From Planctomycetota bacterium (lineage in GTDB: Bacteria; Planctomycetota; Phycisphaerae; Phycisphaerales; SM1A02): a stretch of 53,473 nt of DNA. The stretch covers positions 1 to 53,473 of the forward strand of contig QWPV01000011.1 in NCBI GenBank assembly GCA_003671055.1, read 5' to 3'. Numbering within the stretch: the first letter of the stretch is position 1; every line of letters starts with the position of its first letter. Shown here one piece after another: positions 41,059 through 53,473 of this stretch. Made by a program: the position numbers and the translations under genes. The notes beneath the pieces are model-generated. The model did no database searches and was not told where the DNA came from. It was given only the letters and a program-made list of their open reading frames with translations.

Positions 41059-42516
41059 ATGAGCGACTCGACACTCTTTCGAGGCGGCACCGTCGTCAAC
41101 GCACTTCGCACGTGGCGTGCGGATGTTCTTGTCGTGGGTCCGAAGATTATCGCGGTTGGCGAAGGGCTCGACGCGCCTGCAGGTGCGCGCATCATCGACG
41201 CTGGCGGCGCATATGTCATGCCAGGTGGAGTTGATCCACATACGCACATGGAATTGCCGTTCATGGGGACAGTGTCGAAGGATGACTTCTTCACGGGCAC
41301 GGCTGCGGCAGCGGCGGGCGGCACGACGACCATCATCGACTTCGTGATTCCTGCGCCAGGCGAGAGTCTGATGCACGCGCTCGACACTTGGCGCACGCGT
41401 GCTGCGAAAGCTGCAGCGGATTACTCCTTCCACATGGCGATTACATGGTGGAGCGATGCAGTGCGCGAAGAGATGGGCGAAGTGACGAAGCAGGGAGTGA
41501 CGAGTTTCAAACACTTCATGGCGTACAAGGGTGCGATCATGGTCGATGACGCGGTGCTCGTGCAAAGCTTCATTCGCGCGCGCGACCTCGGTGCGATTTG
41601 CACCGTCCATGCGGAGCACGGCGATCTCGTGGCGCACTTACAAGGCGAGATCTTTGCACGCGGGATCACTGGGCCCGAAGGCCATCCACTCTCGCGTCCG
41701 CCTGAAGTTGAAGGTGAAGCGAGCAATCGCGCGCTTCGCATCGCGGAGGTCATCGGCGTTCCGTTGTATGTCGTGCACACGAGTTGCAGTGATGCGATGG
41801 ATCCGATTGCTCGTGCGCAGAGCGAAGGACAATGCGCGTTCGGTGAAGCGCTCATTCAACATCTCATCGTGGATGACAGCGTCTATCGCAATCCAGACTG
41901 GAATACCGCGGCGCATCATGTGATGAGCCCGCCGTTTCGATCGCGCGAACATCAAGCTGCGCTCTGGCGAGGATTGCAATCGGGCGTACTTTCCGTTGTC
42001 GGCACTGATCACTGCGTGTTCGATACAGCGCAGAAGCGCGTGGGCTTAGGCGACTTTCGCAAGATCCCTAATGGAACGGGCGGCATAGAAGATCGCATGA
42101 GTGTGCTCTGGCATCACGGGGTTGGCACAGGCCGGCTCACGCCGAGTCAGTTCGTCGCGCTCACAAGCACGAACGCGGCGCGCATCTTCAACTGTCATCC
42201 GCAGAAGGGCGCGATTCAGGTCGGCAGTGATGCGGACATCGTGGTGTGGGATCCAAAGAAGACTCGAACGATTTCAGCGAAGACGCAGCATCAGAAGAAC
42301 GACTTCAATGTCTTCGAAGGAATGACAGTGACAGGAAACGCCGCAGTGACAATGTCGCGCGGAAAGATCTTGTGGCAGAACGATCAATTGCAAGCGACGC
42401 AAGGCTGGGGGCAATTCGTCGCTCGCAAACCATTCGCGGATTACGCGCAGGCGCTCAAGTTGCGCAACGCTCTCGCTGCACCAAGTGCAGTGGTTCGGAA
42501 GGACGCTCATTCATGA
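41059..42516 (+). CDS. hydA: Dihydropyrimidinase
   Basis: The product has 485 residues from ATG 41059, preceded by GAGG; an upstream in-frame region overlaps the ureidopropionase. It is a cyclic amidohydrolase with the dinuclear-zinc ligands: the His pair in GGVDPHTHMELPF, the probable carboxylated Lys in TSFKHFMAYKG, His in CTVHAEHGD, His in YVVHTSCSDAM, and Asp in VVGTDHCVF. It opens dihydrouracil or dihydrothymine to the N-carbamoyl amino acid. Its stop overlaps the start of mmsA (ATGA, 42513-42516), so these are translationally coupled. Confidence 0.94.
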   Translation: MSDSTLFRGGTVVNALRTWRADVLVVGPKIIAVGEGLDAPAGARIIDAGGAYVMPGGVDPHTHMELPFMGTVSKDDFFTGTAAAAAGGTTTIIDFVIPAPGESLMHALDTWRTRAAKAAADYSFHMAITWWSDAVREEMGEVTKQGVTSFKHFMAYKGAIMVDDAVLVQSFIRARDLGAICTVHAEHGDLVAHLQGEIFARGITGPEGHPLSRPPEVEGEASNRALRIAEVIGVPLYVVHTSCSDAMDPIARAQSEGQCAFGEALIQHLIVDDSVYRNPDWNTAAHHVMSPPFRSREHQAALWRGLQSGVLSVVGTDHCVFDTAQKRVGLGDFRKIPNGTGGIEDRMSVLWHHGVGTGRLTPSQFVALTSTNAARIFNCHPQKGAIQVGSDADIVVWDPKKTRTISAKTQHQKNDFNVFEGMTVTGNAAVTMSRGKILWQNDQLQATQGWGQFVARKPFADYAQALKLRNALAAPSAVVRKDAHS

Positions 42517-44030
42517 CAGCATCAGCCACGACAGCAACGACAGCCACGCCATTTTCTGCAAAGAGCGATGACTTCGCAACCTACTCCACCGCACGCAACT
42601 GGATCAATGATCAGTGGTGCGATCCAGTTGCCGCAAGCAGTACGCAAGATGTTCTCAATCCTCGATTCGGCAAGTCGATCGCTCAAGTGCGACTCGGAAG
42701 CAGCGCGGATGTTGATCGTGCAGCGAAGGCTGGCGAAGCAGCGGTGGGCGCGTGGAGCAAGTGGCCGATTCGTGATCGCGCGCATGTGATGTATCGCTTG
42801 CGAGAGTTGATGGTTGCGAATCTCGAAGAACTCTCGTGGCTGCTCTCGCACGAAAACGGCAAGATTTTCAGCGAAGCAAAGGCAGAAGTGGAGAAGGGCA
42901 TCGAGTGCGTGGAGTACGGATGCTCGTTGCCTAATCTCGCAGCGGGCGGTCAACTCGAAGTGAGTCGAGGCGTCGCATGCGAGGTGACCTTCGAAGCGCT
43001 CGGTGTGGTTGCAGGCATCACGCCATTCAACTTCCCGATGATGGTGCCGCTGTGGATGCTTCCGCAAGCGCTTGTCGGAGGAAATGCATTTATTCTGAAG
43101 CCGAGCGAACGCGTGCCGCTCTCGACGATGCGCCTTGCGGAGTTGCTCAAGCAAGCAGGACTTCCCACTGGAGTCTTCAGCATCGTGCAAGGTGGACGCG
43201 ATGTGGTGGAAGCACTGTGTGATCACCCCTCGATCAAGGCGCTCGGATTTGTGGGAAGTACGAAGGTCGCGAAGTTGGTCTACGCACGCGCGAGTGCAGA
43301 GGGCAAGCGCGCGCTCTGCTTAGGTGGCGCGAAGAATCACTTAATCGTGGTGCCTGATGCGGATGTCGAACTCACGACTGAGAATGTCGTCGCGTCCTTC
43401 ACAGGTTGTGCAGGACAACGATGCATGGCTGCGAGTGTCTTGCTTGCGGTGGGTGATGTGCATCACATCGTGGATGGAGTTCGAGCGCGTGCGGCGAAGA
43501 TCACGCCCGGCAAGGATCTCGGTCCAGTCTCAAGTCAAGCGGCGCGCGATCGAATCTCGGGATACATCGATGCTGCGGAACGCGCTGGCGCGACTATTCT
43601 GCTTGATGGTCGTCGCGCGAACGCAGTTGCGGGCGGCTACTGGATCGGACCGACGATCATCGACAATGTGACGACGGAAATGTCAGTTGCACACGAAGAG
43701 ATCTTCGGTCCCGTGCTCAGCATCATTCGCGTGCCGACGCTTGAGCGCGCAATTGAAATTGAGAACGCGAGTCCATACGGAAACGCGAGCAGTATCTACA
43801 CGAGTAGTGGCGACATCGCGCGGCGCGTGATTGCCAGCGTTGAAGCCGGCATGTGTGGCGTGAACATCGGTGTCCCTGTGCCGCGCGAACCCTTTGGTTT
43901 CGGCGGATGGAATGATTCCTGTTTTGGTCACGGCAACATGACGGGCTGGGATGGCTATCGATTCTGGACACGACAGCGAAAGATCACAAGCAAGTGGGCG
44001 CTGCAGCATGATCGCAATTGGATGAGTTGA
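42513..44030 (+). CDS. mmsA: CoA-acylating methylmalonate/malonate-semialdehyde dehydrogenase
   Basis: The product has 505 residues from ATG 42513. It belongs to the aldehyde dehydrogenase superfamily, with NAD-binding TPFNFPMMVPLWMLPQALV and GFVGSTKVAK, and the catalytic Cys in FTGCAGQRCMAASV; the GQRCMA sequence is typical of the CoA-dependent MmsA/IolA group. It converts malonate or methylmalonate semialdehyde to acetyl-CoA or propionyl-CoA with release of CO2. This ends the pyrimidine pathway by joining it to central metabolism. The next gene, an aminotransferase, starts 7 bp later and acts just before it in the pathway. Confidence 0.93.
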   Translation: MTASATTATTATPFSAKSDDFATYSTARNWINDQWCDPVAASSTQDVLNPRFGKSIAQVRLGSSADVDRAAKAGEAAVGAWSKWPIRDRAHVMYRLRELMVANLEELSWLLSHENGKIFSEAKAEVEKGIECVEYGCSLPNLAAGGQLEVSRGVACEVTFEALGVVAGITPFNFPMMVPLWMLPQALVGGNAFILKPSERVPLSTMRLAELLKQAGLPTGVFSIVQGGRDVVEALCDHPSIKALGFVGSTKVAKLVYARASAEGKRALCLGGAKNHLIVVPDADVELTTENVVASFTGCAGQRCMAASVLLAVGDVHHIVDGVRARAAKITPGKDLGPVSSQAARDRISGYIDAAERAGATILLDGRRANAVAGGYWIGPTIIDNVTTEMSVAHEEIFGPVLSIIRVPTLERAIEIENASPYGNASSIYTSSGDIARRVIASVEAGMCGVNIGVPVPREPFGFGGWNDSCFGHGNMTGWDGYRFWTRQRKITSKWALQHDRNWMS

Positions 44031-44037
44031 AACACCG

Positions 44038-45384
44038 ATGAACGCAACACCTTCTCTTGGAACGATGGGCTCGCGCGAGATGATCGACGCGTGCATGCAG
44101 CACAGCCTCTTTTCGTGGAGCGCGACAGGTAAGGTCGATCCGATACCGATCGCGCGAGCGGAGGGGATCTATCTCTACGGTCCAGAAGGGCAACGCTGGA
44201 TTGACTTCAACAGTCAACTCATGAGCGTGAACATTGGTCATGCGCATCCGAAGGTTGTGCAAGCCATTCAAGAGCAGGCCGCGACGCTCGCGTATGCGTA
44301 TCCTGGAATGGCGACGGAGATTCGTGCGCGACTTTCACTGCGTCTTGCCGAACTCCTACCGGGAAACCTCAACACATTCTTCTACACACTTGGCGGCGCT
44401 GAGGCCAACGAGAACGCGATCAAGGCTGTGCGGCTCTACACCGGACGCCACAAGATTCTCGCGCGCTATCGCAGTTACCACGGCGCAACGAATGGCGCGA
44501 TCTCGCTCACAGGTGATCCAAGGCGTTGGCCAACCGAACCAGGAATGCCTGGCGTTGTGCGCGTGATGGATCCGCGTCCCTACGAGTTCAGCTTTGGTTC
44601 AACGGATGAAGAGATCGTCGCGAACAATCTGACGTATCTCGAAGAAGTGATTCAGTACGAGGGCCCCAAAAACATTGCCGCGATGTTCATCGAAACAGTG
44701 ACGGGCACGAACGGAATATTGCCGCCGCCAAAGGGTTATTTGAAGGGATTGAAGACGCTGCTCGAGAAGTACGGCATCTTGCTCGTCTGCGATGAAGTGA
44801 TGTGTGGTTGGGGACGCACGGGAAAACTCTTCGCCTTCGAACATGGCGACATCGTTCCCGACATCTGCACGATGGCGAAGGGACTCACCAGTAGCTACTT
44901 GCCGCTCGGTGTGATGGCGGTTTCGGATCCAATCGCGAATCACTTCCGCGAAAACGTTTTCTGGGGCGGACTCACCTACAACGCGCATCCACTTTGCATG
45001 GCATGCGCGCTTGCTGCGGTGAATGTGATTGTTGAAGAGAAGCTCGTCGAAAACTCTGCACGCATGGGCGACGTGATGCACAAGCACATGGAAAGGCTCG
45101 CAGCGAAGCATCGATGCGTGCGCGAGCATCGCAACATCGGACTCTTCGGATTGATCGAACTCCGTAAGAACTCGGCGGGCGAGCGCCTTGTCCCGTACGG
45201 CGGAAGTCATCCCGTCATGGGCAAGCTCGGAAAGTTCCTCAAAGACAACGGCCTCTTCACCGTGCTGCAGTGGAGCACCGTGATGTGTAATCCACCGCTC
45301 ACCATCACCGAAGAGCAGATGCAAGTCTCGTTCGAGATCATTGACCGAGGCCTCACCATCGTCGATGAAGTCTTCGAGCAGTGA
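44038..45384 (+). CDS. Class III aminotransferase (probably beta-alanine / 3-aminoisobutyrate)
   Basis: The 448-residue product is a PLP-dependent fold-type I class III aminotransferase: GHAHPKVVQAIQEQ, the cofactor region FYTLGGAEANENAIKAVRLY, LLVCDEVMCGWGRTGKLFAF, and the Schiff-base Lys in CTMAKGLTSSYLPLG. It transfers the amino group of beta-alanine or 3-aminoisobutyrate to a keto acid, making the semialdehyde used by MmsA. The specificity is inferred from its position in the island; the family also includes other omega-amino acid transaminases. It is the last gene of the plus-strand operon and converges with the NCS1 permease. Confidence 0.9.
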   Translation: MNATPSLGTMGSREMIDACMQHSLFSWSATGKVDPIPIARAEGIYLYGPEGQRWIDFNSQLMSVNIGHAHPKVVQAIQEQAATLAYAYPGMATEIRARLSLRLAELLPGNLNTFFYTLGGAEANENAIKAVRLYTGRHKILARYRSYHGATNGAISLTGDPRRWPTEPGMPGVVRVMDPRPYEFSFGSTDEEIVANNLTYLEEVIQYEGPKNIAAMFIETVTGTNGILPPPKGYLKGLKTLLEKYGILLVCDEVMCGWGRTGKLFAFEHGDIVPDICTMAKGLTSSYLPLGVMAVSDPIANHFRENVFWGGLTYNAHPLCMACALAAVNVIVEEKLVENSARMGDVMHKHMERLAAKHRCVREHRNIGLFGLIELRKNSAGERLVPYGGSHPVMGKLGKFLKDNGLFTVLQWSTVMCNPPLTITEEQMQVSFEIIDRGLTIVDEVFEQ

Positions 45385-45420
45385 GATCGCTTGTCGGTGC
45401 TGATCCCAACATTGAGTTGC

Positions 45421-46968
45421 CTATCGCATGCGGTCGTGGCGGGTGGGGCTGAACATCCAGTGCACTGCCGCAGCGAGAATTACGCCTGAAAACCAGGCGT
45501 ATGGATAGATCGCGTCCCAGAAATTTGGTTCGCCACCAAGCAGTTTCACGCTCTTCAGAAATCCGGGAACGCTTGGCGCGACTCCGATGACGAGCGCGAG
45601 CATCGCAATCCAATTGATACCCGCGTAGCGGCCTTTCGTGCGATAGAGGTCTGGAACATCGAGCGTGCGCTTTCGCAACATCCAATAGTCCACGATCATG
45701 ATGCCTGCGATTGGACCGAGTAGTGCGGAGTATCCAATGAGCCAATTGAAGATGTAGACATCGGGGCTCGCGAGCAACTTCCACGGCATGATGAGAATGC
45801 CGATGACTCCTGTGATCACGCCGCCTGTCTTGAATGAAATCCATCGCGGTGCGATGTTGGAGAAGTCGTTCGCTGGGCTCACAACATTCGCTGCGATGTT
45901 CGTACTGATCGTTGCGATGGCGACACCGACGAGGCTGAGGATCGCGATGACGATGCGTGTCGTCGGATCGGCGAGAAGTGGTGCAGACAGACCAGTGGGT
46001 GGCGTTGCGCTCGTGATGTGGCCTAAGACAACAACGGGATCCCACAGCGTCTTCGGATCGCAACCGGAGAGCACCGTCTCCGATGCACTCGTGATGATGA
46101 CTGCCATCGCGCTGAACGCGAGCATCGTGGTTGGAAGTCCGAGTGCCTGTCCCCACATCTGCTGCTTCTGACCTTTGCCGAAGCGAGTGAAGTCTGGGAT
46201 GTTGAGACTCAGGGTCGCCCAGAATCCGATCATGCCGGTGAGTGATGGAACGAACACTCTCCAGAACTCTGCGTTCGTCGTGAATGATGAGGGCCGGTCG
46301 AACATTGGTCCAAGTCCGCCCGCGCGTTGCACCACCCACCACAAGAGCCAGAGCGCGAGGAGCATGATGATGGGCGCCGACCAATTCTCGAAGACGCGCA
46401 CCGCGTTGATGCCGACCAACACGATCACGATGTTGAGCACCCAGAAGATGAAGAACGTGATCATGCTCGGGACTGGAAGTCCGAGGAGCGATGCTCCGCC
46501 GCCGATGTCGTTGAAGGCTGGCCACACCGCGACGAGAAAAATGCGGACGGCTTCGCCACCGATGTAGCACTGGATGCCAAACCATCCACACGCAACGATT
46601 GCACGAAGCAGTGCGGGAACATTCGCGCCGATCGTGCCGAAGCTACTGCGCGCGAGTACAGGAAATGGAATGCCGTACTTCGTGCCAGGGTGCGCGTTGA
46701 GGAGAATTGGAATCAGCACGATCACGTTGCCGACAGCGATGGTGAAGAGCGCTTGCCACCAGTTCATCCCGAGCGCGATCAGTCCGCCCGCGAGCATGTA
46801 GGTTGGAATGCAGTGCGCCATCGCGATCCAGAGCGCGGCGAAGTTGTAGGTGGTCCAGGTTCGGCGCGCAATGGGCGTTGGCGCGAGATCGCCGTTGAAC
46901 AACGGGCTTGAGGCGATGTCGGGCGGCAATTCGGCGAGAGCTTCAGCGGTGAGTTTCGGATCGTGCAA
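45421..46968 (-). CDS. NCS1-family nucleobase:cation symporter
   Basis: The 515-residue product has about twelve membrane segments. It has the NCS1 signatures: WTTYNFAALWIAMAHCIPTY at the start, the first substrate helices (GNVIVLIPILLNAHPGTKYG, then GIPFPVLARSSFG), and SLNIPDFTRFGKGQKQQMWG in the middle. It is related to transporters of uracil, allantoin, hydantoin and cytosine. Next to the reductive pyrimidine operon, and facing it tail to tail, it is probably the uracil or thymine importer. It lies 60 bp downstream of the histidine kinase gene on the same strand, so readthrough from that operon is possible. Confidence 0.9.
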   Translation of the reverse strand: MHDPKLTAEALAELPPDIASSPLFNGDLAPTPIARRTWTTYNFAALWIAMAHCIPTYMLAGGLIALGMNWWQALFTIAVGNVIVLIPILLNAHPGTKYGIPFPVLARSSFGTIGANVPALLRAIVACGWFGIQCYIGGEAVRIFLVAVWPAFNDIGGGASLLGLPVPSMITFFIFWVLNIVIVLVGINAVRVFENWSAPIIMLLALWLLWWVVQRAGGLGPMFDRPSSFTTNAEFWRVFVPSLTGMIGFWATLSLNIPDFTRFGKGQKQQMWGQALGLPTTMLAFSAMAVIITSASETVLSGCDPKTLWDPVVVLGHITSATPPTGLSAPLLADPTTRIVIAILSLVGVAIATISTNIAANVVSPANDFSNIAPRWISFKTGGVITGVIGILIMPWKLLASPDVYIFNWLIGYSALLGPIAGIMIVDYWMLRKRTLDVPDLYRTKGRYAGINWIAMLALVIGVAPSVPGFLKSVKLLGGEPNFWDAIYPYAWFSGVILAAAVHWMFSPTRHDRMR

Positions 46969-46990
46969 TACAGGCCTCCGGAATCAAGGT

Positions 46991-47037
46991 CGGCAAACTC
47001 AATGCGTGGCGATGAATCTCCGGCAAACTCAATGCGT
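46991..47037. repeat. 17-bp direct repeat at the end of the kinase gene
   Basis: CGGCAAACTCAATGCGT occurs at 46991-47007 and again at 47021-47037, 30 bp apart. The second copy contains the kinase stop codon (47029-47031). This looks like a small recent duplication of the gene end into the spacer before the permease gene. Confidence 0.7.
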
Positions 47038-48885
47038 CGCAGGGGCAAGCGCATTCGGAATGCGCAGGATGAAGCACGCACCCGAAGTGCCGGCGCGTAG
47101 AGGGAGAAGCTCGAGTGATCCACCGAGCCCTTGCGCAAGCGCGCGAGAAACTGGAAGCCCGAGTCCGAGACCAACCTGCGTTCCACTCTCACGCCCCGCA
47201 CGATCAAACGGGCGCCAGATTGCGTTCGATGCATGGCGCGGGATTCCCGCACCCTGATCAGAAACTTGCACTTCGAGCGTGCCCTGATCAATGCGGACGC
47301 GCACATCGATGACCGCCTCCATGTCGTTCGCACTCCCGTACTTCGCAGCGTTCTCGATGAGGTTGGCGAGAATTTGCGTCAGCGCATCTCGATCGACGAG
47401 CACCGACGCATCGCCGAGCGAGTTCGTTGTCGAACTCGTTGCGTTCGCTGCGCGTTCTTGCGTGATCACGCTGATGAGCCGAGTGAAGTCCTCCGCATGT
47501 AGCACGCTTGGCGCATGATTGGGCTTCGCGCCGCGTTCGAGTCGCGAGAGACTCAGTACGTTTTCCACAAGATGCGACAGTCGAACGGATTCGCGGCACA
47601 GCGTGTCAAGGCACTCTTGACGGCGCGCTTCGTCAGTAACCATTCCGTCGCGCAGCATTTCTGCGTACAACTGAAAGGTCGTCAGCGGCGTGCGAAGTTC
47701 ATGCGTGACGCTTGACGCAAAGCGAGCCTGTCGGTCGCCGAAGGAAACACTCGTCCACGCAGCGAGTGCGGCAGCGCTGAGTGCGAGAACAGCAGCGCCC
47801 CACGCGAAGAGAAGTGCAGGCGTACTTGACGCGGGCTCGGTGTCGCTGAGCGGGATGATAAAGTCGCCTTGAAGTTCTACCGGAATGCTCGCAAGGCGCG
47901 CGGGCGCGAATCGATCTGCACCTGCTGCGGTCGGTGTGAGTTGCGGATTGTTGGCGAGGTCCGAGACCTGGCTCAGCAGCGATGCGGAGAGTTGCGTCCA
48001 GTCGACGAGAAATCCTTGCACGCGTGATTCGCCTTGCTCGCGAACGCGTCGAACAAACGCCAATTCTGGCGGATCGATGGAGAGCCATGTGGGAATGAGC
48101 GGTCCGATGGTGTCTTCCGCGCTGCCACCAGTTGCCGACGCGAGCATGTCACTCGTCGTAGACGCAACCTTGCCGCGTCCTTGCACGTCTTCAATCTGTT
48201 GTGCTTCATTGGATGCGCGTACTCGCGTTGCGTAGTCATTCAATGGGAGCTTTGAGCCGCCAGAGAGTCCGCCTGTCGCGCGCATCGCGAGCACGCCCGA
48301 CGACTTCTCTTCAACGTCTGCACTCCACGCGCTCGCGATTGCGGCGTTCGAAACTTCAGCTTGCGCCACACAAGCATCGAACGATTGATTCGCGCTTCCG
48401 ATGAGTGACGCAAGACGCTTCAACGACTCTGCGCGTTCCTTCGGCACGCCATCCTTGAAATACTGTCCCTCTGCAAGGTCAAGAAGATTTCCTTCTGGCA
48501 CCTGCGGACTCGTGAGCGTTCCATCCGTGCGCCATTCGAAGTGAAGCGGAATCCATTCAGGCGTTCCTAGCAGCAACGGACTTGGTGAAAGCACTTCGCC
48601 CTTCGGAACAGATTGAAGCAATCGATTCACCGCACCGCTCGGCGAAAGAAACGACGCGTACTCATCAACAGGTCGCGCGGCTTCGCGTGCGAGGCGCGGC
48701 GTCATCCAGCCATCCATACGCCAGAGTGCGAGTCGAATGACTTCTGCGCGTGCAAGATTCGCGCGAGCTGACGCTTGCTGCGCTTCAAGAGTTCGCACAG
48801 CATTCGTCACGAACCAAAGCCCCGCAATCATGATCAGCGCGGCAGCGATGAGCGCGATGAGCCACCATGGACGTTGACGCTTCAC
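47029..48885 (-). CDS. Sensor histidine kinase with large extracytoplasmic domain
   Basis: The 618-residue product has membrane segments near 8-27 and 357-378, leaving a domain of about 325 residues outside. The cytoplasmic part has the dimerisation/phosphoacceptor motif SSVTHELRTPLTTF with His395, the N-box LANLIENAAKYG, and G-boxes SDQGAGIP and GLGLGLPVSRALAQGLGG. It starts with GTG overlapping the response regulator stop (GTGA), so the pair is translationally coupled. The sensing domain has no recognisable fold. It lies downstream of two VWA-protein genes and may be part of the same operon, suggesting that those envelope proteins are linked to the signal or the output. Confidence 0.92.
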   Translation of the reverse strand: MKRQRPWWLIALIAAALIMIAGLWFVTNAVRTLEAQQASARANLARAEVIRLALWRMDGWMTPRLAREAARPVDEYASFLSPSGAVNRLLQSVPKGEVLSPSPLLLGTPEWIPLHFEWRTDGTLTSPQVPEGNLLDLAEGQYFKDGVPKERAESLKRLASLIGSANQSFDACVAQAEVSNAAIASAWSADVEEKSSGVLAMRATGGLSGGSKLPLNDYATRVRASNEAQQIEDVQGRGKVASTTSDMLASATGGSAEDTIGPLIPTWLSIDPPELAFVRRVREQGESRVQGFLVDWTQLSASLLSQVSDLANNPQLTPTAAGADRFAPARLASIPVELQGDFIIPLSDTEPASSTPALLFAWGAAVLALSAAALAAWTSVSFGDRQARFASSVTHELRTPLTTFQLYAEMLRDGMVTDEARRQECLDTLCRESVRLSHLVENVLSLSRLERGAKPNHAPSVLHAEDFTRLISVITQERAANATSSTTNSLGDASVLVDRDALTQILANLIENAAKYGSANDMEAVIDVRVRIDQGTLEVQVSDQGAGIPRHASNAIWRPFDRAGRESGTQVGLGLGLPVSRALAQGLGGSLELLPLRAGTSGACFILRIPNALAPATH

Positions 48886-49592
48886 GCGCGGACCTCCGCG
48901 TCAGCCGCGAGGCGGTAGCCTTTGCCTCGCACGGTTTGGATGACCGCATCAAGGCCCACACTCGCAAGTGATTCGCGCAGTCGTGTCATCTGCATGTCGA
49001 CAGCACGAGTCTCCGCACCGCGTGGATCCACTGCCCATACGACTCGCAACAATTCTTCGCGCGTCACCACTCGCGCGCGATTAGCTGCAAGCATGCGAAG
49101 GACGCTCGCCTCGCGTGTGCTCAGCGTCACCACAGTGCTTGCGCCGCGCGCTTCACATCGCGCGAGATCAATCGTGCCAGCGGGCACTGTGATGTGATGC
49201 ACATCCACAGGTCGCTCCGCACTGCGCCGCAACACGGCGCCAATGCGCGCGAGGACTTCACGCGCGCTGAACGGTTTCACCACGTAATCATCTGCGCCGC
49301 GCTCAAGGCCTTCAACGCGATCACGCTCATCGCCGCGCGCAGTCAACATCACCACGGGCAGTGTCGCGCTCGCGTTGCGAAGGTCTCGAAGCACTTCAAA
49401 TCCATTGCGCCCAGGAAGCATCACATCAAGCAGCACAAGGTCAGGCGACGCTTCGAGGATTTGCGCGAGCGCCGTATCGCCGCGCGCACAGGTGAGTGGG
49501 ATGTAGCCGCCGAAGCGGAGCACATCACACAGTCCTGCGCGAATCGCGTCGTCGTCTTCAACGATCATGACTCTTGGCTTTGCTGCAGTCAT
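48882..49592 (-). CDS. OmpR-family response regulator
   Basis: The product is 236 residues from ATG 49592 (AGGA eight bases upstream); the frame continues to 49670 without value. The receiver domain has the acidic pocket VMIVEDDDAI, the phosphoacceptor Asp in LVLLDVMLPGRNGFEVL, the Thr/Ala switch VVMLTARGDE and Lys in DDYVVKPFSAREVLARI. The C-terminal winged helix (TLSTREASVLRMLAANRARV, then VDMQMTRLRESL and VRGKGYRLA) is of the Trans_reg_C type. It is co-translated with the kinase and starts 19 bp after the VWA gene stop. Target promoters cannot be told from this window. Confidence 0.95.
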   Translation of the reverse strand: MTAAKPRVMIVEDDDAIRAGLCDVLRFGGYIPLTCARGDTALAQILEASPDLVLLDVMLPGRNGFEVLRDLRNASATLPVVMLTARGDERDRVEGLERGADDYVVKPFSAREVLARIGAVLRRSAERPVDVHHITVPAGTIDLARCEARGASTVVTLSTREASVLRMLAANRARVVTREELLRVVWAVDPRGAETRAVDMQMTRLRESLASVGLDAVIQTVRGKGYRLAADAEVRA

Positions 49593-49611
49593 GGTCGTCA
49601 TCCTACTTCGA

Positions 49612-50814
49612 TCACTGCTCCGATTGCACGCGCGCCGGGGTCGCGACAGGTGGAACAACGGGTGGTGCAACTGGAGCAGGAGGTACGAACTGCATTCCCT
49701 TCTTCGTTGCTTGAGATCGAATCGCTTGCTTGAGCGCGTCGTCGAGCGTGACGCCTTGTTCGTTCGCTTGGTTGCGAGCCGCGTTTGCGAGGAACGCCTC
49801 GCGCTTAGTTTGCAGTACCTGAACTTCCGCTTGAATGCGCACGCGTTCTACTTGTTTCGCTGCAAGGATCACCTTCTTCTCCTCAAGTGTTTTGCCCTTC
49901 ATCTCAGCGGGCAGATCCTCGTCCTTGACCTCTTCGATTTTCATTTCGCCAGCGGCGCAACCGTCCACGAGATCCCACGAGCGGTTGTCGTAGATCGCGC
50001 TGCTCTTGGACACAGAGCGCTGTGCGGCGACTCCGGCACCAAGTGACTGCGCATTCGCATCCTGCAATGTTTGATTCGCTGCCGCCGTCGCGCCACGCGT
50101 GCCGCAGGCGAGGTAGGTCGTGTTGATGGTTGCGGAGAGTTCCGCGAGTTGCTTATCGAATGGCGTTTCTGGAACGACCACGCCCGCGCCTTGATCGATG
50201 CAAACAAATTGACCATCCGCAAGTCGCGCGACATCGCCCCAGTTTGCGGCGATGGGATCCGATGCTGTGCCGCAGAAAATACTGTTCACCAGAATTCCGC
50301 GCTCGATGCTCGCTTTGCTCGCGGTTTGATAGGTAACGACTGTGTCTTGATCGGCTGCTTCATTGCCAGCGACAACGATGATGCGAAGCGCGTTTGGGTC
50401 TGTGGACCACGAGAGTGTTTGCGCCGCGGTGTTCACCACGCGTCCCACGAACTCAGTTCCGCCATTTGTATGGAGCGCGAACAACTTTTGCGAGATGAGA
50501 TCGAGATCTTCAGTGAGGCCGGAGTCAACGACAACCCATCCGGTCATCGGGTCGTAGGCATCGCATCCGTAACTCAGTAGTGCAACGCGAACTTCTGGAA
50601 TCGGCTTCGCTGTTGCGAGGTCGTTCACGATGCTCCAGAGGCGAGCCTTCGCGCTGTCGATGAGCCCGTCCATGCTGCCTGAGATGTCGAGGCAGATTGC
50701 GAGTTCAACGACGGGGCGCGCAGCAGGCTTTACCGCGACATCATTTTGCGCAAGTGTTGTGGTGGTGAGAGCGAGAACGGTAGAGGCGAGGATGAGCGTA
50801 GGAATGCGAGTCAT
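49612..50814 (-). CDS. Exported von Willebrand factor type A domain protein
   Basis: The product has 400 residues from ATG 50814, with AAGGAG upstream. It has a signal peptide (LILASTVLALTTTTLAQ), a VWA domain with the metal-ion-dependent adhesion site CLDISGSMDG and the following Thr/Asp positions (TNGGTEFVGR), and a C-terminal region rich in Lys, Glu and Gln that is probably helical (about 300-380) and ends in a Pro-rich tail. The segment AIYDNRSWDLVDG shares YDNR with the preceding VIT-VWA protein (QLAYDNRFYDEQ). It is 23 bp downstream of that gene and 19 bp upstream of the response regulator. A role in an envelope complex with divalent-metal-dependent binding is likely; the partner is unknown. 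Confidence 0.85.
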   Translation of the reverse strand: MTRIPTLILASTVLALTTTTLAQNDVAVKPAARPVVELAICLDISGSMDGLIDSAKARLWSIVNDLATAKPIPEVRVALLSYGCDAYDPMTGWVVVDSGLTEDLDLISQKLFALHTNGGTEFVGRVVNTAAQTLSWSTDPNALRIIVVAGNEAADQDTVVTYQTASKASIERGILVNSIFCGTASDPIAANWGDVARLADGQFVCIDQGAGVVVPETPFDKQLAELSATINTTYLACGTRGATAAANQTLQDANAQSLGAGVAAQRSVSKSSAIYDNRSWDLVDGCAAGEMKIEEVKDEDLPAEMKGKTLEEKKVILAAKQVERVRIQAEVQVLQTKREAFLANAARNQANEQGVTLDDALKQAIRSQATKKGMQFVPPAPVAPPVVPPVATPARVQSEQ

Positions 50815-50837
50815 GGTGAGCTCCTTGGAGTGCGTGA

Positions 50838-53228
50838 TTAGCACGCGGGTTCGAGAGGATTGCGAACGAGAATATTCTTTGATTGATGACGGATGAGCGT
50901 GTCGCCCGGAAGTGAGAGGACGGACTGCCGGCCTTCGCGCGCGAGTTCGTTGATGAGTTCGAAGTGGCGATGGCTGCCGAACTCCACGGTCTCATCGACA
51001 TGCATCGCGCCGAGTGTAGGAACGGCTGCTGCTGCGGTTGCTGCGATGAGTTGAGAGTCGAGCCAGACACCATCGTTCTGATAGAAGCAACGATCAGAGA
51101 GTTGTTGCACGTTCGTCACGCGCTTCTCTCGAAGTTGCTCGTCATAGAAACGATTGTCGTAGGCGAGTTGCGCCTTGCCCTTCATCTCATTGAAGTTGAT
51201 GCCTTGGTTCAGTGCACCTCCGCCGCTGCGCGTTGCAACGGCGCGCGAGTCGAGCAGATCACTGCAGCCTCCAGCGAGCGCGTTCCAGTCACCGAGATTC
51301 GTGCCTTGATCGGCAAAGAACGCGGTGTACTCCGTGAGCACGCCGAAACGCGCGCTGAGTTTCACAATCTCCTCGACGAGTTCTTTCACGCGCGGGTCGT
51401 TCATCGGAGTGGCAGACGCAAGCGGTTGACCTGGCACATCGGCAGCGAATTGCCGCACTTCATCGACGAGTTCCGCGATGCGACGCGTTGCCCACAGTCG
51501 CGCAACGTATCCGTGTCGCGTCGTTGCGGCGGAGGGATCGAACGGAACATTCGCCTTCACTGCACCGGCAGCACTTCGCGCAGTGATTTCGAATTGGGTT
51601 GGACTCTCGCCCACATAAGCGCCGAACACCACGAGTTGTTCGCCAGCGAACACATCGGGAATTCTGCGCGGCGCGAGATCGCGGATGCGCTTCGTGTCTT
51701 CGTTGCCGTCGTTGGACCGCGCAGTGAGCGCGATGTCCGCAAGCGTTGGACCGTCGAGTTGCCGCGCAACCTGCGCGACCTTCAATTCCACATTTTCACC
51801 AGGCACGATGTAGGTTGCGCGAGCCCGCGTGAGATCAGCGACACGATCGAGCAGGGGGACATTGACATCTGCGCCGACGCCGATGGTGTAGACACGGCGG
51901 TTGTGTGGATTGCCCTTCTCGACAATCTCGCGAATCGCGCGCTCTGATGTCTGACCAACCGTCGGCAATCCATCGGTGAGGAACAACACGATGCCGAGTG
52001 TTCCATCGACGTGTGGTTGTCGAAGTGCCTCGACGAGCGCATCGGAAATGTTTGTTCCACCACTCGGCTTCAGTGATGCGAGGTGCGCGCGCGCTTCGTT
52101 CACAGTTTGCGGCGTGTAGAGCACAGGTTCACGCGCGAACAAGCCCACCGCATTGGAGTAATCAACGATGTTGAAGCGTTCTCCGGTTGAGAGTCCTTCG
52201 ATCACTTGCAATACCGCAGCTTTCGCTTGATCGAGCTTTCCGCCCGCCATGCTTCCTGAGCGATCAAGCACGATGGTGACTTCGCGCTTCATGCTGCTCG
52301 CTTCGATGGTTGGTGCTGCGATGCCGCCGAGCAACATGAAGTATCCGCCACCTTGCGTTGGGTCGGGGTACGCAGCGATACTCGTTGCGGCTGTTGCCAC
52401 GCCAGAATCATCTTTCGCGTTCAACACGCTGACGAGGAATGGGCCAGGAGATTTTTGTGAGAGCGCATCGAGCGCGAAGTGGCGCTCGTTCGGCGTTGCT
52501 GCACGAAGCAACTCCACGATGCCGTGACTCGGTGAATAGACCGCAGCAATCGGGGTGACTTGCGCAACGCCCAATCGGACAGTCCAAGGGACGCTCTGTC
52601 GCAAGCTTTCGCTTCGAGGCAGCGCGTAGTCGATGCGCCCATCGGTGAGCGGGAGAAGTTCTTCCCACACAATGCGGACGCGTTGCTTCGTGCGCGGCGC
52701 GATCGGAAACACACTTGAGCGCAGCATGGTCGAGCCAGCAAACTCGAGCAGACCAGGATCACGACTCGCGCGCACGATCGAGTCGTACAGCCTTCGTGCG
52801 TCCTCGCGAGGCATGATGCGTGCGACGCCTTCGCTCGCTGACGCTGGTTGGTTTGGTTCGGCGCTGAACGAGAAACCATGGACTGTCGCACCCGCAGGAA
52901 TCGGAACCAACAGAATTGCTTCCGCGAGGGTGGACGACGGATTCTCAACCGTCATGTCGAGTGTCGTGCGCGCGAAGCGTTCGCGAATAACGATGTCCGC
53001 ATCCACTCCAACGAGCGCGACGCCTTGCGAGATCGTCCCGCGGATTGCGATCACGCGGTGCTGCGGGATAATGATGTGCGTCACCGTCGACGGAAGGTCG
53101 AGCGTTTCAATGGGCGCTTGGATGCTCTGGGCTTGCGCGGAAACTGCCAGATAACCCGCGAGAAACACGGCACCCATGGAGAGTTGACGGCGAAGAGTCG
53201 CGAAGTGGAGTGTTGCGGAAGTGATCAT
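50838..53228 (-). CDS. Exported VIT and VWA domain protein
   Basis: The product has 796 residues from ATG 53228; the frame extends to 53288 but the signal peptide fits the later start (LSMGAVFLAGYLAVSAQAQ). The N-terminal VIT domain spans about 60-220, with the typical segment SSTLAEAILLVPIPAGATVH and FPIAPRTKQRVRIVWEE. A VWA domain follows with VLDRSGSMAGGKLDQAK (complete DxSxS), KPSGGTNISDAL and FLTDGLPTVGQ. A C-terminal region of about 250 residues contains a GVWLDSQ segment common to VIT-VWA proteins. No ribosome binding site is clear; an 8-bp hairpin lies just before the start. It is the first gene of a probable operon with a VWA protein and a two-component system. Confidence 0.88.
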   Translation of the reverse strand: MITSATLHFATLRRQLSMGAVFLAGYLAVSAQAQSIQAPIETLDLPSTVTHIIIPQHRVIAIRGTISQGVALVGVDADIVIRERFARTTLDMTVENPSSTLAEAILLVPIPAGATVHGFSFSAEPNQPASASEGVARIMPREDARRLYDSIVRASRDPGLLEFAGSTMLRSSVFPIAPRTKQRVRIVWEELLPLTDGRIDYALPRSESLRQSVPWTVRLGVAQVTPIAAVYSPSHGIVELLRAATPNERHFALDALSQKSPGPFLVSVLNAKDDSGVATAATSIAAYPDPTQGGGYFMLLGGIAAPTIEASSMKREVTIVLDRSGSMAGGKLDQAKAAVLQVIEGLSTGERFNIVDYSNAVGLFAREPVLYTPQTVNEARAHLASLKPSGGTNISDALVEALRQPHVDGTLGIVLFLTDGLPTVGQTSERAIREIVEKGNPHNRRVYTIGVGADVNVPLLDRVADLTRARATYIVPGENVELKVAQVARQLDGPTLADIALTARSNDGNEDTKRIRDLAPRRIPDVFAGEQLVVFGAYVGESPTQFEITARSAAGAVKANVPFDPSAATTRHGYVARLWATRRIAELVDEVRQFAADVPGQPLASATPMNDPRVKELVEEIVKLSARFGVLTEYTAFFADQGTNLGDWNALAGGCSDLLDSRAVATRSGGGALNQGINFNEMKGKAQLAYDNRFYDEQLREKRVTNVQQLSDRCFYQNDGVWLDSQLIAATAAAAVPTLGAMHVDETVEFGSHRHFELINELAREGRQSVLSLPGDTLIRHQSKNILVRNPLEPAC

Positions 53229-53232
53229 GACA

Positions 53233-53254
53233 TTGGGAAGATAGGACTTCCCAA
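53233..53254 (-). promoter_or_regulatory. Perfect 8-bp inverted repeat before the VIT-VWA gene
   Basis: TTGGGAAG (53233-53240) and CTTCCCAA (53247-53254) are separated by six bases and end 4 bases upstream of the ATG at 53228. It could be an operator for autoregulation or an RNA hairpin that hinders ribosome access. It may equally be the 3' part of an upstream regulatory region. Confidence 0.45.
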
Positions 53255-53306
53255 CGCAACAATCGATCACGCATTTGTAACAACCCAACCGCGGCTCAGA
53301 TGGGGC

Positions 53307-53473
53307 TCACTTCTTTTTGAACATCCGGAACAACCGCGTGATCGGGTCGTAGAACTCGTCGACGACGCGTTCCTTCATCGGAATGATCGCGTTGTCAGTG
53401 ATGCCGATGTGTTCAGGGCAAACTTTCGTGCAGCACTTGGTGATGTTGCAATAACCGATGCCATCCTTGTTCT
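53307..53473 (-). CDS. sdhB: Succinate dehydrogenase iron-sulfur subunit, C-terminal part (window edge)
   Basis: The last 167 bases hold 54 complete codons of a minus-strand gene whose 5' part lies beyond the window. The block GIGYCNITKCCTKVCPEHIG, followed by ITDNAIIPMKERVVDEFYDP, is the last Fe-S cluster region of SdhB as found in Planctomycetes, Actinobacteria and some Firmicutes. Its Cys residues would bind the [3Fe-4S] and part of the [4Fe-4S] centre. It passes electrons from SdhA to the quinone. The stop TGA is at 53307-53309. The gap to the VIT-VWA start is 78 bp. Confidence 0.9.
   Translation of the reverse strand, partial: NKDGIGYCNITKCCTKVCPEHIGITDNAIIPMKERVVDEFYDPITRLFRMFKKK

Follow-up and report, generated by a model that had tools for sequence, protein, structure and literature searches.

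A conserved unit of two VWA proteins and a two-component system in Planctomycetota, with a predicted operator ahead of its first gene

The stretch of DNA analysed here, the window, comprises 53,473 nucleotides (nt) of a Planctomycetota bacterium (Phycisphaerales, SM1A02; assembly GCA_003671055.1, contig QWPV01000011.1). Its minus strand carries four consecutive genes, in the order VIT-VWA protein (50838-53228), second VWA protein (49612-50814), response regulator (48882-49592) and sensor histidine kinase (47029-48885). The first two genes are separated by 23 base pairs (bp) and the second and third by 19 bp, while regulator and kinase overlap by 4 bp. The original prediction, made from the letters alone, had given the same places, gaps and overlap, and all of them agree with the coordinates as I re-derived them. 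A simple scan of the gap between the second VWA gene and the regulator (49612-49592) found nothing promoter-like or terminator-like on the minus strand. All results below come from sequence comparison, mostly of assembled environmental genomes in which genes were taken as open frames.

The first protein, of 796 amino acids (aa), is by its domain matches a VIT-VWA protein of the inter-alpha-trypsin heavy-chain-like type. Both its VIT domain (52671-53009 on the minus strand; PF08487, 56.1 bits, cut-off 26.5) and its VWA domain (PF00092, 49.7 bits, cut-off 23.8) exceed the Pfam cut-offs, and it keeps a complete metal ion-dependent adhesion site (MIDAS) of D322xSxS, T392 and D419, residues that are invariant in 12 of 12 aligned rows. 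Over residues 67-603 it matches the inter-alpha-trypsin inhibitor heavy chain H4 with an E-value of 2.7e-32; it shares the VIT and VWA architecture with these heavy chains, but differs from them in being bacterial and in having a further conserved C-terminal part. In the window's copy the second protein (400 aa) falls below the Pfam cut-off for VWA (22.9 vs 27 bits), but 18 of its 20 aligned members match VWA at E<=0.001. Its AlphaFold model (pLDDT 73.9) aligns with VWA domains at Z-scores up to 19.8, with BatB at 19.5. Judged from model and alignment it has the VWA fold but departs from the canonical DxSxS/Thr/Asp MIDAS: the DxSxS is invariant in all 20 rows, and the third position reads AGNE in all 20, so that of the two proteins only the VIT-VWA protein clearly has a complete MIDAS. 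From their N termini both proteins are probably exported, although a hydropathy scan flags the second alone, with an N-terminal hydrophobic segment only; for the VIT-VWA protein it reports no hydrophobic segment above threshold, and hence no C-terminal anchor. The segment YDNR occurs in both proteins, as the original prediction had noticed, but as a hint of a common partner it has to be given up. The two proteins have 10 four-residue words in common, whereas shuffled sequences average 7.0 and reach 10 in 17% of cases, and YDNR stands in both proteins in just 10 of 38 loci, the window's copy included.

The regulator belongs, by its receiver (PF00072, 95.2 bits, cut-off 30.2) and its winged-helix Trans_reg_C domain (PF00486, 69.2 bits, cut-off 26.2), to the OmpR/PhoB type; a second in-frame ATG for it lies at 49601. 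The kinase, of 618 aa and with a GTG start, matches HisKA (PF00512, 66.4 bits) and HATPase_c (PF02518, 67.1 bits). Hydrophobic stretches at about residues 5-31 and 355-383 leave approximately 325 residues between them, in agreement with the outer domain of 325 residues proposed earlier. This N-terminal half of the kinase (47722-48885) is conserved. Among 27 members of the outer domain, a Pfam scan gave no convincing family (best LapA_dom in six, E 0.022, and TarH in one, E 0.0041), and none of them matched a Pfam Cache family. A profile search of the sequences in the Protein Data Bank with the outer domain found nothing at E<=0.1, and Foldseek with its model (pLDDT 80.6, pTM 0.67) nothing at E<=0.001. 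A second-look structural alignment listed CqsR as the best match (Z 7.7), followed by KinD (7.3), Mlp24 (7.2), PctC (7.0) and LuxQ (6.9), with calcium channel entries also among the matches; most of the first 40 rows are, by their titles, dCache/PDC-type sensors. These matches weakly suggest a dCache-like domain, with the reservation that a Z-score under 8 may reflect merely a common arrangement. The outer-domain profile, built from 27 rows of which 11 come from the group of a Prosthecobacter locus, is matched in 96 of 392 genomes of a sample of the planctomycete phylum (E<=1e-10) and in 13 of 194 genomes of the phylum of that Prosthecobacter locus. In a sample of the phylum of an Ardenticatenaceae locus (L062) it is matched in 0 of 151 genomes, in a search without a positive control in that phylum. 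On these counts the domain is a widespread sensor that lacks a convincing Pfam match.

In the aligned DNA ahead of the VIT-VWA gene, a block of about 20 bases (TGTTACAAAYGCRTGRTCGA) is found in all eight loci of the window's clade, the window included, with a single mismatch in two of the eight. This count takes the loci that have upstream DNA (L038 and L041 have none before the VIT-VWA gene), and L005 and L006, which share their identities to the window with L037 and L035, are counted once. In the window the predicted operator reads TGTTACAAATGCGTGATCGA (53263-53282, minus strand), with half-sites GTTACA and GTGATC at an 11-bp period and a 17-nt core at 53265-53281. The -10-like element TATCTT (53238-53243, minus strand) follows 21 nt past the core, and TANNNT at this fixed offset is present in eight of eight loci of the clade, a feature that was unused in finding the box. 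The start codon lies 9 nt after the -10-like element in the window and 6 to 9 nt after it across the clade, and owing to this short distance the operon's mRNA may be leaderless. A simple promoter scan of the minus strand ahead of the operon found no complete sigma-70-type promoter. The block is not simply coding, as the alignment shows a stop in L042 within the frame running into the VIT-VWA gene. It is also rare: the window's 2.85-Mb genome holds one exact match and one more with 3 mismatches, and in 1.73 Mb of compared DNA the box is seen, at up to 3 mismatches, only ahead of the operon.

At the corresponding position the verrucomicrobial loci carry a direct repeat, mostly TTTACAG-N4-TTTACAG, that is cleaner than the block of the window's clade. 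I generalised it to KTTACM-N5-KTTACM, again with an 11-bp period, and judged from its sequence the box of the window's clade is related to this strict box of other lineages. In 114 loci (1.41 Mb) there are 43 strict sites against 0.4 in mononucleotide shuffles, a count that is partly so by construction, since the pattern was read from some of the counted loci. The reversed and the complement-only controls gave 0, and any other spacing from N0 to N20 gave 0-2. Eleven of the sites are verrucomicrobial and 32 lie in loci of a survey of the planctomycete phylum. Operon and strict box are both present in L046, L047 and L050, from assembled genomes that bear the name Prosthecobacter. For nearly all (39 of 43), the operon's first gene has its next in-frame start codon at most 132 nt downstream; the distance is taken to that codon, and the true start may lie further on. 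This first gene is a VIT-VWA gene behind 31 sites (one a remnant, in L143), a VWA gene behind one and the regulator behind seven. Six of the seven regulator-first loci have at least 4.5 kb of upstream DNA without a VIT-VWA or VWA gene; the pair therefore does not need adjacent VWA genes. TANNNT stands 38 bases from the first base of the site at 23 of the 32 non-verrucomicrobial strict sites. The window's own genome (G000) has 0 strict sites because the second half-site is variant, and the clade's 20-base box was used there instead. OmpR/PhoB-type regulators bind direct repeats with an 11-bp period. In the region of the recognition helix the window's regulator reads RAVDMQ, and RA(V/I)DMQ is found across its clade, whereas relatives with a strict box have mostly DMH, a few DML and one DVH. 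The variant half-site and the variant helix thus go together in the window's clade, which is suggestive only.

Scanning species genomes with the kinase as query gave 30 loci. Eight of the nine close loci (L034-L042) carry all four genes, the VIT-VWA gene of L041 being cut by a contig end, and L038 starts only within the VWA gene. Every one of the 11 verrucomicrobial loci shows the same four-gene order. The order thus recurs in two phyla, which rules out synteny by chance in one genome and upholds the earlier reading of VWA genes and two-component system as one conserved operon. In distant Phycisphaerales a VIT-VWA gene is found in L044 and L055 and a VWA gene in L048 and L051, and the contig of L043 ends before that place. 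A related gene directly precedes the regulator in L043, L044 (5738-7249), L048 (5679-7241), L051 and L055, replacing the VWA-type gene or following it; the one tested is DUF4139-like at 24.2 bits, below the Pfam cut-off of 31.8. L060-L063 match the kinase in its catalytic half only. The survey of the planctomycete phylum comprises 88 loci in 87 genomes; of the 96 genomes with a match, it omits the window's own and eight without listed places. Its tally, with thresholds that I set, takes the 71 loci with at least 4.5 kb upstream, leaving out the 17 of 88 with less. A VIT-VWA gene, a VWA gene or both precede the pair on the same strand in 51 of these 71. VIT-VWA, VWA and regulator lie within the set range in 32, and in L088 both VWA genes are present but the regulator lies at a greater distance; only the VIT-VWA gene is found in 13, only the VWA gene in 5 and neither in 19, and L158 could not be classed. 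By these comparisons the four-gene association is beyond chance. Four loci without VWA genes (L119 4321-8828, L125 4429-8952, L129 4356-8910 and L131 4340-8258) form one family, in which two large frames (546-821 aa) point away from the regulator. Both frames appear to carry a membrane or signal segment at the N terminus, and the predicted box lies in between.

Across 20 genomes, KTTACA-N5-KTTACA has 81 sites against 29 in the reversed control, and G163 alone has 23 against 16. G070, which contains L088, has several boxes. The strict box is single in 5 of 19 other genomes (G044, G099, G267, G430 and G431). Among 30 sites with known surroundings, 8 are the operons' own, and 5 of the 22 others (L179, L180, L193, L198 and L199) have TANNNT at the offset. 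Homologous proteins recur behind such further boxes: those of L193 and L199, which are cytochrome P460-like, are 40% identical, the cyclase-repeat proteins of L179 and of the second site in L149 are 36% identical, and those of L198 and L200, from one genus and of no clear family, are 59% identical. A DUF4140/4139 protein stands behind a box in L194; like the cytochrome P460-like and cyclase-repeat proteins, it is probably exported. Several of the 22 other sites stand before nothing recognisable or before unlikely targets. Boxes ahead of such proteins make a small regulon of cell-surface proteins in some lineages likely. On the minus strand of L149 the second box lies 5.5 kb from the first, ahead of the cyclase-repeat protein.

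Since the box stands ahead of the VIT-VWA gene, the VWA genes are likely targets of the regulator. The link between VWA proteins and signal that the original prediction drew is kept, with its direction turned; there, metal-dependent binding outside was to feed the signal. I think it rather probable that the VWA proteins are outputs of a self-regulating two-component unit, and perhaps inputs as well. In such a unit the extracytoplasmic, probably dCache-like domain of the kinase would sense an outside signal, and the kinase would phosphorylate the OmpR/PhoB-type regulator. The regulator would then bind the direct repeat that lies immediately ahead of the promoter of the operon, and binding would activate VIT-VWA, VWA, regulator and kinase as one transcription unit. 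The signal would in this way raise both the system itself and the exported VWA proteins, which may act at the surface or in a matrix. Placed ahead of a promoter, direct repeats with an 11-bp period are consistent with an activator of the OmpR/PhoB type.

Several observations weigh against this reading. The pair is kept without VIT-VWA or VWA upstream in 19 of the 71 survey loci, and L056 has the regulator-kinase pair and neither VWA gene on its strand. By my rule, 4 of the 43 strict sites are not ahead of the operon's first gene, and TANNNT at the box offset is found at none of the 11 verrucomicrobial strict sites. In the tally, 46 operons of the VIT/VWA type and 18 regulator-only operons lack a strict box; 7 of these 64 are the window's clade with its variant, and four (L045, L054, L132 and L143) do have sites. 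The remaining 53 loci without a strict site comprise 13 with a half-site and TANNNT at the offset, some of them probably by chance, and 40 with nothing. The recognition-helix glutamine also occurs in L056, L093, L099, L134 and L155, all without a strict box; this, and the fact that the window's clade is one lineage, makes the recognition-helix argument weak. Genome-wide, the excess of sites outside the operons is modest, and 19 of the 81 sites are the operons' own boxes, which were the basis for choosing the genomes. Finally, activation is preferred to repression from the position of the box only.

Alternatively, the VWA proteins could be inputs that, outside the cell, bind metal as well as a partner and alter the activity of the kinase by docking on its outer domain, much as LuxP docks on LuxQ and changes its activity. 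The co-conservation of all four genes would suit such an arrangement, as would the outer domain's structural matches, which include LuxQ and calcium channel entries, for in animal calcium channels a single chain, the alpha2delta subunit, contains both VWA and Cache domains. Its Cache domains are also described in PMC9901441. However, the box marks the VWA genes as likely targets, in 19 of 71 loci the pair has neither of them upstream, and the sharing of YDNR is chance, so that I regard inputs as unlikely, though not negligible. Both directions would be joined if the regulator drives proteins whose VWA domains then dock on the dCache-like domain of the kinase. This combination is speculative and I would not expect it to hold, but if it did, the surface would be self-sensing: the cell would gauge the assembly of its own outer protein layer and adjust production, and the unit would be a split version of the union of VWA and Cache in alpha2delta.

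Negative autoregulation, in which the box-bound regulator would silence the operon until the signal lifts the block, would also place a box close upstream of the -10-like element, where a repressor could act too. Nevertheless, the fixed 21 nt between box and -10-like element are a usual place for an activator, and the lack of a complete sigma-70-type promoter in the minus-strand scan is expected if an activator replaces a weak -35 element; I consider repression improbable. It is very unlikely that a different regulator binds the box and that the two-component pair merely travels with the exported proteins. Binding of the box by this regulator is a prediction, and many genomes have boxes elsewhere, but the box precedes the regulator gene in seven loci without an intervening VWA gene and the form of the repeat fits the OmpR/PhoB family. 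A chance neighbourhood without functional link is hardly credible, for although VIT-VWA-like proteins are common (52 of 61 genomes, the window's own included), an order kept across two phyla, together with the box, already contradicts it.

The original prediction stated that no system of this composition had been described, which is partly right. The dedicated sortase system of proteobacteria has a VIT-VWA target, a kinase and a regulator, with TIGR03784 and TIGR03787 among its models. By analogy it is the closest named composition, and like the window's unit it places a VIT-VWA protein next to an OmpR-like regulator and to a kinase whose outer part is long. The window's unit differs by its second VWA protein and in having no sortase among the four genes; none of the four proteins has a Pfam match to a sortase, in a search that did not extend to the rest of the genome. 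In NCBIfam the VIT-VWA protein matches TIGR03788 best, at 184.6 bits against a cut-off of 551.65, the kinase reaches 50.5 bits against 612.2 for TIGR03785, over profile positions 488-687 of 703 only (the catalytic part), and TIGR03787 is not among the regulator's best 25 of 105 NCBIfam families. As its scores lie below the cut-offs of TIGR03788 and TIGR03785, and its VIT-VWA protein has no C-terminal hydrophobic anchor, I do not count the unit as a member.

The closest logic, again by analogy, is that of PrsK-PrsR in the PEP-CTERM/EpsH system, which was found by genome comparison: a kinase with a novel outer domain, a regulator of the sigma-54 type, PrsR, and a shared cis site before exported proteins (PMC1569441). 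The window's pair differs in sitting inside its targets' own operon, and its regulator, a receiver with Trans_reg_C, belongs to the OmpR/PhoB type and goes with a sigma-70-like -10 element. Such a regulator is not sigma-54-interacting, which sets the pair apart from PrsK-PrsR. PilY1 proteins carry a VWA domain, and no VIT domain is known from the HsfBA/PilY1 system. The HsfBA phosphorelay of Myxococcus xanthus sets the level of surface PilY1 proteins (PMC9109919); it differs from the window's unit in that these are pilus proteins. CreBC, PhoBR and other OmpR/PhoB systems share the core of regulator and kinase and direct repeats with an 11-bp period, whereas the window's regulator and kinase stay below the NCBIfam equivalog cut-offs (best 25 families each) and the outer domain of its kinase has no convincing Pfam match. 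I found no description of a unit of VIT-VWA, VWA and two-component genes in the open-licence literature, a weak negative as coverage was partial; in passages of PMC2754498 a VWA protein and two-component systems appear apart. Planctomycetes and Verrucomicrobia, the surface biology and gene control of which are poorly known, would gain a conserved signalling unit with a testable predicted operator. Inter-alpha-trypsin-like proteins would be tied to a defined signal path, and the box could lead to a broader range of surface proteins.

Around the operon, a permease-like frame (45421-46968) starts 60 bp past the kinase. A relative of it lies near the kinase in only 2 of 114 loci (L034, and L036 up to the contig end), many of the 114 holding few kb downstream, and it was excluded from the unit as a fifth gene. 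The region 42246-46968 holds, all by appearance, an aldehyde dehydrogenase and an aminotransferase on the plus strand and this permease on the minus strand. A sequence of 16 bases, CGCATTGAGTTTGCCG, is present twice around the end of the kinase gene, at about 46980-47040 of the window. On the other side of the operon, an upstream gene at 53306-53473, cut by the contig end, reads YCNITKCCTKVCPEHIGITDNAIIPMKE ahead of its stop, and by its appearance resembles the iron-sulphur C-terminal portion of subunit B of succinate dehydrogenase.

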